Below are positions 2,090 through 6,644 of a stretch of 6,644 bases of DNA, in pieces. Under the pieces are notes generated by a model. The model saw only the letters and a program-made list of their open reading frames with translations. It made no database searches and had not been told where the DNA came from. Positions within the stretch are counted from its first letter, which is position 1; each line of letters starts with the position of its first letter. The position numbers and the translations under genes were made by a program. Origin of the DNA: Candidatus Saccharimonadota bacterium (GTDB lineage Bacteria; Patescibacteriota; Saccharimonadia; Saccharimonadales; UBA4665); the NCBI GenBank assembly GCA_027314795.1, contig DAHVAE010000039.1, positions 274 through 6,917 of the forward strand, read 5' to 3'.

Positions 2090-2113
2090 TGTAGCTACAA
2101 TAGCTACATTATA
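2090..2113 (-). promoter_or_regulatory. Possible -10 box and short repeat-containing leader of the 1094-2089 gene
   Basis: On the minus strand a perfect TATAAT (2108-2113) overlaps the clpC stop codon and lies 18 bases before the ATG. No convincing -35 hexamer sits 16-18 bases upstream (the 17-base spacing gives CTACGA). The stretch between box and ATG contains TGTAGCTA twice, the second copy forming the perfect palindrome TGTAGCTACA (2090-2099). If used, it would give a very short mRNA leader without a Shine-Dalgarno sequence. Read-through from clpC is an equally good explanation for expression. Confidence 0.3.
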
Positions 2114-4592
2114 CAGTTTCAGCTGTTAAATCGTAGGCGAGTTCACCTTTTTTAGTTGCAACTTTAATAATGTTGCCGCGATCATACTTCTCCCTAAGTA
2201 GCTCAGAAGCTAGATGATCCTCAATGGTATTTTCAATTAACCTTCTGAGTGGTCTAACGCCGTTTTTAACATCATAGCCATTTTCCAGAAGATACTGTTT
2301 GGCTTGTTTGGTCATTTCTAAGCCTATACCATGTTTAACAAGACGTTTTTTAAGATCATCTATTTGTAGATCAATTATTTTGAGTATGTCCGATTTAGTT
2401 AATGCTCTAAAGACAATCACCTTATCGATCCTATTTAATAGTTCTGGGCGCAGTGATTTTTTAAGTTCGCTCATAACCTTGTCTTTATTTTCTTCATGTA
2501 AGTCGTCTAGTGAGCTTAAGTCTTTAGCGTTGCTTATATTGAAACCCAAATTAGCTTCACGTTGGAGTTTATCTGCACCAATGTTCGAAGTCATGATGAT
2601 AATTGTGTTTGTAAAGTCGATGCTGCGACCTTTGGCGTCAGTTAGTTTACCGTCCTCAAGGAGCTGTAGTAGCATATTAAAGACTTCCGGGTGAGCCTTT
2701 TCAATTTCATCAAAGAGTACTAGCGAATATGGCTGACGTCTTATCTTGTCAGTCAGCTGACCGCCTTCATCATAGCCGACATAGCCTGCAGGCGCACCGA
2801 CCAGTCGACTAACATTGTGGTGTTCGCCAAATTCACTCATATCGATTTTAACTAGGGCCGATTCAGAGCCGAAGAACTCCCGCGCGAGGACTCGAGCTAG
2901 TTCTGTTTTACCAACACCGGTCGGACCTAAGAAGATAAACGAGCCAATTGGTCTCGTTTCGCTACCTATACCTGAACGGTTACGTCTAATGGCTTTGGAT
3001 ACAGCGTCAATGGCTTCGTTTTGGCCCACTAACTGCTTGCCAATTATTTTCTCTAGTTGTAAAAGGTATCTGGCTTCACTTTTAATGACTCTCTTAACTG
3101 GAACGCCGCTAATCCTTGATACTACTTCGGCTAAATCATCACTGCTTAAGGTTAGCTTCTTGCTAGTTTTAAGAGTTGCTTGAAGCTTCTTCAGCTCATC
3201 AGTTATTTGCGATACCCTTGTCTTATATTGTGCGGCTCGTTCGTATTCTTCGTTGTCGACAGCATCATCAATTCTGACGTTTAGTAGCTTAAGTTCTTTT
3301 TGTAGTTTTCTAATTTCTGGGCTAGTTTTAGCGTTAATTACTTTAAGATAAGCTGCAGTTTCATCAACCAGGTCAATAGCCTTATCTGGCATAAATCTGT
3401 CAGCTATATATCGCTTAGCTAAATTAACTGCATCTTCAATAACGTCATCACCTATTTTTACGCCATGAAAGTCCTCATAGTGCTTTCTTAAGCCCTTAAG
3501 GATTGAGATGGTCTCAGTAATTGTTGTTTCAGGCACCTGTATGGGCTGAAAGCGTCTTTCTAGAGCAGCGTCTTTTTCAATATGCTTGGTATACTCACTA
3601 GTTGTTGTAGCCCCAATTATTTGCATTTTACCGCGTGCTAGAGCTGGTTTTAGGATATTACCGGCGTCCATAGCGCCTTCAGCAGCACCAGCGCCGACAA
3701 TAAGGTGTAATTCGTCAATAAAAGCAATGACGTTCTTGTCTGTTTCTAGTTCATTAATAACTTTCTTGAGACGATCCTCGAACTCTCCTCGATATTTAGT
3801 ACCGGCTACCATGGCAGCTAGATCTATAGTTATCACTTTTTTATCTATCAGGCTGTCTGGAACTTCCTCGTTGACTATTCGTTGAGCCAGACCTTCAACA
3901 ATTGCGGTCTTGCCCACCCCAGGTTCGCCAATTAAGACCGGGTTATTTTTAGTCCGCCTGTTTAAAATAGTTATGAGTCTTTTGATTTGGGCATCACGTC
4001 CAACTAGAGGGTCCAGTTTCTTTGATTTAGCTAAAGCCGTTAAGTCGATACCAAAAAAGTCGACGGTACTAGTCTTGCTGTTTTTAGTTCTTCTTCTTGG
4101 TTCGCTCACCATACTTTCAGCATATTGTTGGCGATTTAAGAATCTACCAACTTCATTCATAAGTTGATCGACGTCAACGTTCATATCTTTAAGCAGGACT
4201 GTTGCCCGAGCATTCTTCTGGCTTAAAATGCTGTATAAAATATGCTCGGTGCCACAATATTCTTGAGAAAACTCTTGAGCAACGTCATAAGCTGTACGTA
4301 ATGTTAACTTAGCTGTTTCACTTAACCCTTTGGCGCCAATTTGGATAACTAGGGCTTTTGGGGTAAGATTTAATGCTAGTCTAGCCCGGTCAAGAGTTAC
4401 GCCAGCGTCACTTAATATCTTAGAGCCCATTGAGCCACTCTGAGCTAAAACGCCTAGCAGTAAATGTTCGGTTCCGATGTACGCACTGCCAAAACCTCTA
4501 GCAATAATATCTGCCTGGCGTAAACTTTGTTTAGCGTTTGCAGTTAAATGAGACAAAAATTCTTGAAAATCTGGATTATTATCTGGTAGCAT
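2109..4592 (-). CDS. clpC: ATP-dependent Clp protease ATPase subunit ClpC (Hsp100 unfoldase)
   Basis: At 827 residues this is a full-length ClpC (Bacillus subtilis ClpC is about 810). Two Clp-N repeats are seen at about 8-75 and 82-152, with the parallel motifs [10 protein letters not shown] (40-49) and [10 protein letters not shown] (114-123). D1 has Walker A GEPGVGKT (222-229), Walker B FIDE (291-294), a pore loop with GTKYRG (264-269) and arginine fingers R346/R347. A short middle domain with a UVR-like coiled segment (about 425-470) separates it from D2. D2 has Walker A GPTGVGKT (556-563), pore loop GYVG (603-606), Walker B LVLFDE (624-629), sensor-1 N670 and sensor-2 GVRPLRR (778-784). 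LGF at 682-684 matches the ClpP-docking tripeptide and aligns with VGF of B. subtilis ClpC, so it should feed substrates to ClpP in the cytoplasm. No clpP, mcsA/mcsB or ctsR gene is nearby. The start ATG (4590-4592) has a weak AGGG five bases upstream, and the Clp-N domain begins immediately. It is preceded by its own promoter with a CIRCE operator, indicating heat-shock control by HrcA. Confidence 0.96.
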
Positions 4593-4662: not shown

Positions 4663-4692
4663 ATAATAACTTAGTTGGCACTCGCTAGTCAA
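4663..4692 (-). promoter_or_regulatory. Promoter of clpC (-35 TTGACT, -10 TATTAT)
   Basis: On the minus strand TTGACT (4687-4692) and TATTAT (4663-4668) are separated by 18 bases, each matching the sigma-70 consensus at five of six positions. The predicted start is about 4655-4658, giving a leader of roughly 65 bases. The -35 hexamer occupies the first six bases of the spacer between the two CIRCE arms, so repressor binding would block RNA polymerase directly. Confidence 0.7.
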
Positions 4693-4701
4693 GAGTGCTA
4701 A
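4675..4701. promoter_or_regulatory. CIRCE operator (HrcA binding site) of clpC
   Basis: TTGGCACTC (4675-4683), nine spacer bases, and GAGTGCTAA (4693-4701) match the CIRCE consensus TTAGCACTC-N9-GAGTGCTAA in 17 of 18 arm positions with the exact spacer length. CIRCE is bound by the repressor HrcA, which releases DNA on heat or protein-folding stress. The element overlaps the -35 box of the clpC promoter, the expected geometry for repression. hrcA itself is not in this window. Confidence 0.9.
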
Positions 4702-4866: not shown

Positions 4867-6027
4867 CTAGCTCTTTGAAGTTTCTTCGCCATGTTCCTCT
4901 ATGGCTTCAAGTAGTGAGCTTTCAAGTTCGCTTTTCTTTTTTAATTTAGGAGCTTTGGGCTTTTCCGCTTCTTCGGCTTGTTCTTTAGGTTTTTCAGCTT
5001 CAATGTCTAACTCGTAGTTAGTGAGTTTTGAGGCTAACCTAACGTTCTGACCACCTTTGCCAATGGCAATACTTTGTTGGTCTTCGGGAACTATTACTTT
5101 GGCTTTTTTATTAGCTTCATCTATTTTAACCTCAGTAACTTTTGTCGGGCTTAAAGCGTTAACAATATATTCCTTAGGATCTTCACTCCAAACAATAATG
5201 TCAATCTTTTCTTGTTCGCCAACTTCGCTAGTAACGGCATTGACTCGAGTGCCATGACCGCCAACGAACGTACCGACTGGATCGACGCCTTGAACATTTG
5301 AGGCAACGGCAATCTTAGTTCTTACGCCGGCTTCTCTAGCCATATCTCTTATCTCTACTGCCTTCGACTCCATTTCTGGTACTTCAGCCCGAAATAACCA
5401 CTCTATAAACTGGGTGTTACCGCGACTAACAACAAGTTGTGGGCCTCTAAAGCTTTTTTCAACATCTTTCAGAAAGACTTTAACCCGCTGGCCTGGGTAG
5501 TAATGCTCGCCTTGAATCTGTTCGCTGCGTGGCATGATACCTTGGGCTTTACCTAGATCTACCCTAACCACGTTGCCTTCAACTCGAGCAACATTGGCAT
5601 TAAGAACAGTGCCAACCTTGTCTTCAAATTCGGCTAGAACAATCTCACGCTCAGCTTCTCGAAGTCTTTGGAGAATAACCTGTTTAGCGGTCTGAGCAGC
5701 AACTCGACCAAAGTTTTCAGCTTTTTCGTGAACTTCAATTTTATCACCAACTTTAATGTTTTTATTGTGTTTTTTAGCATCATCTAAACTAATATCAAAG
5801 GCTGGGTTATCTACATTTTCAACTACTTCCTTTGTTACAAAGGCATCAATATCTCCCGTATTGAGATTCATGCTAACTCTGATTTCTTGTTCGCGGTCGC
5901 CGTAGTCTCGTCTATATGCAGCCGCCAGTGCTTGTTCAACTACTAGCTGAACAGTGTCTTCAGGCAAGTTCTTTTCTTCGGCAATAGCTCTAATGGCTAC
6001 CGCCAGCTGTTTCATGTCTAGATCCAT
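4867..6027 (-). CDS. nusA: Transcription termination/antitermination factor NusA
   Basis: This 386-residue protein has the standard NusA core, close in length to B. subtilis NusA (about 371) and without the C-terminal repeats of E. coli NusA. The N-terminal RNA polymerase-binding domain (about 4-125) ends in QTAKQVILQRLREAERE. It is followed by an S1 domain (about 135-201), KH1 with the GxxG loop GGHG (256-259) within DPVGTFVGGHGTRVNAV, and KH2 with IAIGKGGQNVRLASKLT (320-336, loop GKGG). The KH1 loop has histidine where many NusA proteins have arginine (GxRGSR). Residues 346-386 are a Glu/Lys-rich, probably disordered tail. NusA binds the elongating polymerase and nascent RNA and promotes pausing and hairpin-dependent termination. 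The ATG is chosen because AAGGA lies seven bases upstream; Met5 would be too far. The gene is first in its unit with its own promoter; the usual neighbours rimP and infB are absent. A terminator-like hairpin in its leader suggests autoregulation. Confidence 0.96.
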   Translation of the reverse strand: MDLDMKQLAVAIRAIAEEKNLPEDTVQLVVEQALAAAYRRDYGDREQEIRVSMNLNTGDIDAFVTKEVVENVDNPAFDISLDDAKKHNKNIKVGDKIEVHEKAENFGRVAAQTAKQVILQRLREAEREIVLAEFEDKVGTVLNANVARVEGNVVRVDLGKAQGIMPRSEQIQGEHYYPGQRVKVFLKDVEKSFRGPQLVVSRGNTQFIEWLFRAEVPEMESKAVEIRDMAREAGVRTKIAVASNVQGVDPVGTFVGGHGTRVNAVTSEVGEQEKIDIIVWSEDPKEYIVNALSPTKVTEVKIDEANKKAKVIVPEDQQSIAIGKGGQNVRLASKLTNYELDIEAEKPKEQAEEAEKPKAPKLKKKSELESSLLEAIEEHGEETSKS

Positions 6028-6034
6028 ATTTACA

Positions 6035-6039
6035 TCCTT
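6035..6039 (-). promoter_or_regulatory. Shine-Dalgarno sequence of nusA
   Basis: AAGGA on the minus strand lies seven bases before the nusA ATG. It is the best ribosome binding site in the window and fixes the start codon at 6025-6027. Confidence 0.8.
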
Positions 6040-6051
6040 AAGGTTTTAATT

Positions 6052-6082
6052 AAAAAAGCCGACCTAATTTGCAGTCGGTCGG
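6052..6082 (-). terminator. Intrinsic terminator/attenuator in the nusA leader
   Basis: On the minus strand CCGACC (6077-6082) and GGTCGG (6059-6064) form a perfect 6-bp GC-rich stem with a 12-base loop. After one C it is followed by six consecutive T (6052-6057), the classic layout of a rho-independent terminator. The plus-strand reading has no T-tract after the stem, so it acts in the nusA direction. It lies downstream of the nusA promoter and upstream of the nusA RBS, with no minus-strand gene visible before it, so it is a leader attenuator rather than the end of another gene. A 5-bp alternative pairing (6074-6078 with 6059-6063) is also possible. Confidence 0.75.
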
Positions 6083-6094
6083 GATCTAAATAGC

Positions 6095-6123
6095 ATTATA
6101 GCAAAGACTACTTAGATTGTAAA
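6095..6123 (-). promoter_or_regulatory. Promoter of nusA (-35 TTTACA, extended -10 TGCTATAAT)
   Basis: On the minus strand TTTACA (6118-6123, five of six) and a perfect TATAAT (6095-6100) are separated by exactly 17 bases, with TG one base before the -10 as in extended -10 promoters. The expected start is about 6087-6090, giving a leader of about 60 bases that holds the attenuator hairpin and the Shine-Dalgarno sequence. Confidence 0.8.
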
Positions 6124-6166: not shown

Positions 6167-6644
6167 ATGGCAAGAAGCGTACGTAGATTATATAGCTCGT
6201 TTAAACCAGATAACTATAATCTGGAAATAACTATTAATGCTGACTATAAAACATTTAAAGGTAAGGCGGTTATTGAAGGGTTGAAGGTTGGCCGACCAGC
6301 TAAACGATTAACTTTTCATCAAAAGAATCTAAAGGTCATTAAAGCCGTAGTTACCGTCATTGATTCTAATAAGTCTAGAGAACTAAAGATAGCAAGAATA
6401 AATTACCAAAAAAGCTTTGATGAACTACGTATACACTTTAACGAACTAGTTTACCCGGCTAGATACAAGGTCGATATTGAATACGAGGGCAAGATTAACC
6501 CCCAGCTTCACGGCATCTACGCAGCAACCTTTAAAGATAAGAATAAAAGCAAAACAATTATTTGTACTCAACTTGAGTCCCACTACGCTAGGGAAGCACT
6601 GCCCTGTATTGATGAACCTGAAGCTAAAAGCGTGTTTAACTTGA
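6167..6644 (+). CDS. M1-family metallo-aminopeptidase, N-terminal part (3' end outside the window)
   Basis: Only the first 159 codons are present. The opening RLYSSFKPDNYNLEITI followed by FKGKAVIEGL is the usual start of the M1 N-terminal beta-domain (PxxYxLxI...FxGxV.I). QLESHYAREALPCIDEPEAK near residues 135-153 matches the family signature Q.E...AR...PC.DEP..K, whose Q/E residues lie by the substrate N-terminus. The zinc HExxH and GxMEN motifs would come later. These enzymes remove N-terminal residues from peptides, usually in the cytoplasm. No signal peptide is seen. A stop codon lies in frame at 6152-6154, so ATG 6167 is the only usable start. The nearest Shine-Dalgarno-like AAGG (6147-6150) is 16 bases away, too far for optimal use, and better spaced for an out-of-frame ATG at 6160. 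No strong plus-strand promoter is visible; a weak candidate is TTGATT (6128-6133) with TAAGAT (6152-6157), which would make the mRNA almost leaderless. The gene diverges from nusA. Confidence 0.88.
   Translation, partial: MARSVRRLYSSFKPDNYNLEITINADYKTFKGKAVIEGLKVGRPAKRLTFHQKNLKVIKAVVTVIDSNKSRELKIARINYQKSFDELRIHFNELVYPARYKVDIEYEGKINPQLHGIYAATFKDKNKSKTIICTQLESHYAREALPCIDEPEAKSVFNL

Follow-up and report, generated by a model that had tools for sequence, protein, structure and literature searches.

A conserved promoter-proximal predicted terminator in the nusA leader of Saccharibacteria, likely to limit NusA synthesis by attenuation

The idea that NusA feeds back on its own synthesis is not new, the leader terminator of Bacillus subtilis being the precedent. 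NusA-stimulated termination in the leader of its own gene is established in this species (Mondal et al. 2016, as cited in an excerpt of PMC12288461). The saccharibacterial locus described here looks similar, with an intrinsic terminator in the 5' leader which would control transcription into the gene, but the dependence on NusA, established in B. subtilis, is here presumed. In Streptococcus agalactiae, the RNA-seq-mapped RNA of the rimP-nusA leader ends 31 nt after its start, and feedback by NusA was proposed, not shown, according to an excerpt of PMC4448216. An intrinsic terminator thus lies immediately behind the start in both cases, at 31 nt and at a predicted ~36–38 nt, respectively, although the S. 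agalactiae element is the leader of a rimP operon. The rimP-leader family of Naville and Gautheret (2010; excerpt of PMC2965389) carries a terminator 4–130 nt from the gene start with no visible antiterminator, and the question of whether RimP or NusA reads it was left open by these authors, NusA being favoured. As judged by sequence, the present element resembles this family in that a nusA-containing transcript has a short, conserved leader terminator and no visible antiterminator. However, the rimP-leader precedes rimP, the first gene of its operon, whereas the next gene is nusA here, and its stem reads GGGc...gCCC, to be compared with CCGGCC...GGUCGG here ([C/U]CG[G/A]CC...GG[U/C]CGG in 30/30 loci). 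Since both the next gene and the stem differ, the saccharibacterial element is set apart as a variant. The same excerpt cites the Escherichia coli metY-rimP-nusA-infB operon, the expression of which is lowered by NusA; a comparable limitation of NusA by itself would apply here. It also describes, in some Gammaproteobacteria, an additional terminator placed in tandem and having a potential antiterminator, a difference from the present locus. Among the matches listed from the open-licence PMC literature, none describes a nusA attenuator in the present group.

The stretch of DNA analysed as a whole, hereafter the window, comprises 6644 bases of a Saccharibacteria-like draft genome (681 kb, 101 contigs). 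It includes nusA, followed by a clpC-like ORF (2109-4592, minus strand), and the features listed below.

4867..6027, minus strand: nusA, 386 aa, with NusA_N, S1 and NusA-type KH domains; ATG at 6027
6035..6039, minus strand: AAGGA, predicted ribosome-binding site, outside the hairpin
6052..6057, minus strand: U6 tract, predicted termination site; TTTTTT in 28/30 loci, one base off in 2
6059..6064, minus strand: 3' arm GGTCGG of the hairpin (sequence, fold and alignment), followed by C6058
6065..6076, minus strand: hairpin loop of 12 nt, not conserved; 4-12 nt across the 30 loci
6077..6082, minus strand: 5' arm CCGACC of the putative attenuator hairpin (sequence, fold and alignment)
6087..6088, minus strand: predicted transcription start, by the rule of thumb of 7-8 nt behind the -10 hexamer
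6095..6100, minus strand: predicted -10 hexamer TATAAT, TG-extended; last base 12 nt before the stem
6118..6123, minus strand: predicted -35 hexamer TTTACA; promoter-like hexamers at the same place in relatives
6167..6643, plus strand: divergent M1 aminopeptidase gene, starting at 6167 and cut by the window end

A first-pass annotation of this DNA had described a TTTACA-N17-TATAAT promoter with a TG extension, followed in order by a GC stem, six U residues, AAGGA and the nusA start, and all these elements are indeed in place. The predicted promoter, with its 17-nt spacer, scores 11/12 in a promoter scan, but is not significant alone, with one such site found against a mean of 2.6 in shuffles (1145 bases scanned). 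The terminated RNA is predicted to be ~36–38 nt long, given a start 7–8 nt behind the -10 hexamer. A 37-nt RNA has a predicted folding energy of -10.3 kcal/mol (z -2.29), and 5 of 200 shuffles fold as well, so the window sequence by itself is only moderately above chance. The stem is short, with 6 pairs in the window; a seventh, outer pair forms in 21/30 loci, the window not being one of them, and an alternative register places the 5' arm at 6078-6073. The hairpin is considered as real because stem and U-tract are conserved in all 30 loci, as detailed below. A single site in the window's own genome matches the stem pattern.

A NusA scan of the contigs of named genomes yielded 40 loci, 29 from close relatives and 11 distant ones (L030-L040, NusA identity 43–46%), which were left out of the counts. 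NusA identity ranges from 69 to 82% among the close relatives, except for L042 (45% over 66 residues), a contig end joining the nusA start to other sequence, which was kept in the count; another locus, L003, probably derives from the same genome as G001. The pattern [C/T]CG[A/G]CC-N4-12-GG[T/C]CGG followed by a T-run is present in 29/29 loci, namely the window and 28 loci with a complete start; its first C had been loosened to C/T after the sequences had been seen. L028, the match of which starts at residue 77, stands outside this count, and its motif was seen separately. With L028 included, the alignment of the nusA upstream regions shows stem and U-tract kept in 30/30 loci (window and 29 relatives); a loss of the hairpin in close relatives, which would speak against an attenuator, was looked for and did not occur. 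An SD-like word lies within the last 20 nt of 27/29 leaders. The hairpin could have been the ordinary 3' terminator of an upstream gene. This was rejected, since the aminopeptidase gene starts divergently less than 200 nt upstream in the window and in 19/28 relatives; in the window, no neighbouring gene is directed into the hairpin. In L026, a gene on the nusA strand stops immediately in front of the hairpin, and position cannot separate an attenuator from a 3' terminator at that locus.

In the alignment of 30 leaders, 95.7% of the cells pair. Four of the seven pairs are invariant, which leaves covariation mainly to the outer ones. One pair is a G-U wobble in 25/30 loci. The outermost pair is UA, GC, AU or UG, and is unpaired in 9/30 loci, including the window; both of its sides are changed in 9 sequences, whereas shuffles give 4.5 and slid controls 0. 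At the class level, 21 cells are changed on both sides among 38 matches, compared with 9.2 in shuffles and no more than 6 in slid controls. The alignment used (A2) was built to fit the structure, and three of its rows do not come from nusA leaders (two from L084, one from L078). The number of pairs with changes on both sides does not exceed that of shuffles, either in the 30 leaders (1 vs 1.0) or in the class alignment (2 vs 1.9). The near-invariance of the stem letters suggests that the sequence would be recognised, and not the hairpin alone.

The position of the hairpin relative to its two neighbours is informative. In a first distance scan, which took the best-scoring promoter within 60 nt whatever its score (8–11 of 12), the last base of the -10 hexamer is 10–17 nt from the stem in 28/29 loci, and 23 nt in L013. 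By comparison, the distance from stem to nusA start codon ranges from 24 to 208 nt (29 loci). The extreme case is L029, with a hairpin 208 nt from the start codon, yet 14 nt behind a -10 hexamer. A second scan was restricted to promoters scoring at least 9/12, with a -10 hexamer ending 3–22 nt before the stem; a qualifying promoter is found in 24/29 family, 26/48 class and 19/40 phylum leaders. In the family, the standard deviation of the promoter-stem gap is 1.6 nt, against 20.6 nt for the stem-to-start distance. This near-constant gap on one side and variable gap on the other indicate that the hairpin belongs to the transcription start and not to the ribosome-binding site. In three loci, L029 (1793-2000), L083 (251-450) and L077 (230-450), the putative attenuator lies ~200 nt or more upstream of nusA; similar DNA is common to L029 and L083 in this interval.

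How specific the element is for nusA was analysed at the genome scale. The plain pattern CCGACCN{2,14}GGYCGG proved too unspecific, its backward control being often as common in 59 family genomes, hence the switch to a covariance model including the U-tract (R1). In the genome scans, scoring was limited to the 70 or 44 best candidates of each genome under stricter filters, and only R1 matches of at least 24.8 bits were paired with NusA matches in the family. Of the 89 nusA genes or fragments in 93 family genomes, 87 have an R1 match on the same strand no more than 400 nt upstream, a count which is not independent since R1 was trained on 30 sequences overlapping the genomes searched. Hairpin and U-tract are visible by eye in the two unmatched cases, G079 and G057, which score 17.9 and 19.5 bits when searched on a smaller scale. 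Conversely, 10 of the 97 family matches at this threshold (at least 24.8 bits) fall away from any listed nusA. The one in G022 precedes a nusA whose start is truncated by a contig end. Of the nine others, six were inspected (all but those in G061, G038 and G034), and two of the six lie directly behind tRNA genes (L124, L130). Among 147 class genomes, 144 bear nusA, and an R1 match at nusA is found in 84 of these 144 and missing in 60. The best 60 of 128 class matches are all at nusA, and 42 of the 128 are elsewhere. The genomes without a match include groups with differing stem letters by eye (L091, L092, L103-L111), so the signature appears strongest near the lineage of the window. A weaker R1-like hairpin (26 bits) was also observed at L131 582-627, before an ORF resembling IMP dehydrogenase by eye; it may be a further leader terminator, or else mark where the upstream gene ends.

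Hairpins before nusA extend beyond this signature. A model-free scan searched for a hairpin with a T-rich tract within 220 nt upstream of nusA, with 8 shuffles per sequence, in the 29 family leaders, in class leaders from 50 of the 144 nusA genomes and in phylum leaders from 40 of 103 outside the class. The class and phylum leaders were hand-picked so as to represent many families and to have a near-complete gene start, and the two sets are taken as Saccharimonadia and Patescibacteria, respectively. At -6 kcal/mol, a hairpin is present in 28/29 family, 46/50 class and 39/40 phylum leaders, against 5, 11 and 11 on the opposite strand and 25–27% of shuffles. At -8 kcal/mol, the numbers are 28, 43 and 30, against 2, 8 and 6 on the opposite strand and 12–13% of shuffles. 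Some of the hairpins counted are not the putative attenuator, other ones having been picked in L074, L084, L102, L108 and L111. Several phylum loci show GTCGG...CCGGC-like stems (L135, L138), and two from other classes (L143, L149) show GTGGG...CCCAC-like stems resembling the rimP-leader. In seven distant loci, no rimP-leader stem was found by the pattern used. A single ancestral leader across these groups seems plausible.

What could read the element? No conserved competing stem was found, the consensus fold of 24 leaders containing the terminator hairpin only, in agreement with the earlier remark that no antiterminator stem is obvious. In the window leader, the 5' end UAGAUCC can pair with the first codons GGAUCUA. 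The idea that this pairing acts as a translation switch was abandoned, as it is missing from the consensus fold of 24 leaders; a lineage-specific antiterminator, of which such a pairing would be an example, may nevertheless exist. No Rfam family matches the window at gathering scores, and a search of 13 related loci with E values up to 10 gave three chance-level matches only; no described sensor RNA family was matched, be it a riboswitch, a T-box or a ribosomal-protein leader. The RimP_N domain was found in 0/21 relatives and 0/116 phylum genomes, with a control positive in 10/14. This agrees with a survey which calls rimP nearly absent in this phylum (excerpt of PMC12641178). RimP is thus a poor candidate regulator and, since the putative attenuator is kept where RimP is not found, NusA is the better one. 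By analogy with the described systems, we infer that NusA is the best candidate sensor.

According to the proposed mechanism, transcription would begin near 6087, the hairpin would be complete within ~30 nt, and RNA polymerase would arrive at the U-tract end at about +36. When free NusA is abundant, most transcripts would stop at the U-tract as an RNA of ~37 nt; when NusA is scarce, the polymerase would continue into nusA. An antiterminator would not be required. That an intrinsic terminator close to the promoter attenuates nusA, as the first-pass annotation had suggested, appears strongly supported at the sequence level by the conservation, covariation, U-tract, specificity for nusA and promoter distance described above, and by the lack of a competing stem; termination in the cell is what we infer from them. 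The fuller reading, in which this conserved predicted terminator is likely stimulated by NusA and limits NusA synthesis, is given a probability of about 0.72.

The most serious alternative is a real promoter-proximal terminator without NusA control, which would trim a strong promoter down to a constant output or answer another factor such as NusG. In its favour, NusG also stimulates intrinsic termination in B. subtilis (excerpt of PMC8060035). On the other hand, the near-invariant stem letters, found mainly at nusA, go beyond the needs of a plain terminator, and NusA feedback is established at the same place in B. subtilis (excerpt of PMC12288461), which makes this alternative rather unlikely. 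A 5'-terminal stem-loop shielding the nusA mRNA from decay would fit a hairpin kept within a few nt of the predicted start, but it would need neither the TTTTTT found directly behind the stem in 28/30 loci nor conserved stem letters, and is considered as very improbable. Even less credit is given to a DNA operator, with a repressor bound to the inverted repeat just behind the promoter. The arms do form such a repeat at the predicted start, but the G-U pair of 25/30 loci breaks the symmetry of DNA and not that of RNA, the arm spacing ranges from 4 to 12 nt, and the conserved T-run is one-sided. Equally slim are the chances of a trans-acting small regulatory RNA, for which the strongly conserved stem sequence could speak, since the loop and flanks, where pairing would occur, are not conserved, no Rfam family matches and the element stays with nusA even ~200 nt away (L029, L077, L083).

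The attenuator stimulated by NusA remains the preferred reading, and can be extended into a more ambitious scheme. A promoter-locked nusA attenuator, working without RimP or antiterminator, might be ancient and Patescibacteria-wide; in Saccharimonadia, the fixed CCGGCC/GGUCGG stem might have become a recognition element read by NusA on a polymerase which has barely cleared the promoter, the sigma-NusA hand-over at ~+35 sensing free NusA. This scheme is speculative, and held as doubtful in its entirety. An attenuator in genomes with no RimP domain found would provide a natural experiment on who reads rimP-leader-like elements and, the stem letters being conserved, it can be tested whether NusA recognises the terminator sequence or the hairpin only. 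For a hard-to-culture phylum, the element would also add a predicted RNA regulator; genetic tools exist for a cultured saccharibacterium (PMC10633639).

Some further observations were made at these loci. At L129, which is the contig end of L042 again, the leader of nusA and its first ~23 codons are joined to other sequence up to the contig end; no Pfam match was found in this sequence, which may be RNA polymerase beta, and the junction is probably a misassembly. An open-ended Ser/Thr/Gly-rich ORF occupies positions 3-1091 of the window, with a KTGT stretch near its start and no Pfam match; judging from this motif, it is perhaps the end of a penicillin-binding-like protein. A CIRCE-like element lies at 4675-4701, upstream of the clpC-like ORF, where 0 are expected in shuffles; it has one mismatch to the HrcA operator consensus. 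Similar elements are found upstream of nusA in 6/50 class, 0/29 family and 0/40 phylum leaders, namely in L106, L107, L108, L109 and L111, and in a weaker form in L097. In the first five of these, TTGACA lies within the CIRCE-like spacer, and nusA may thus be under HrcA heat-shock control at these loci.
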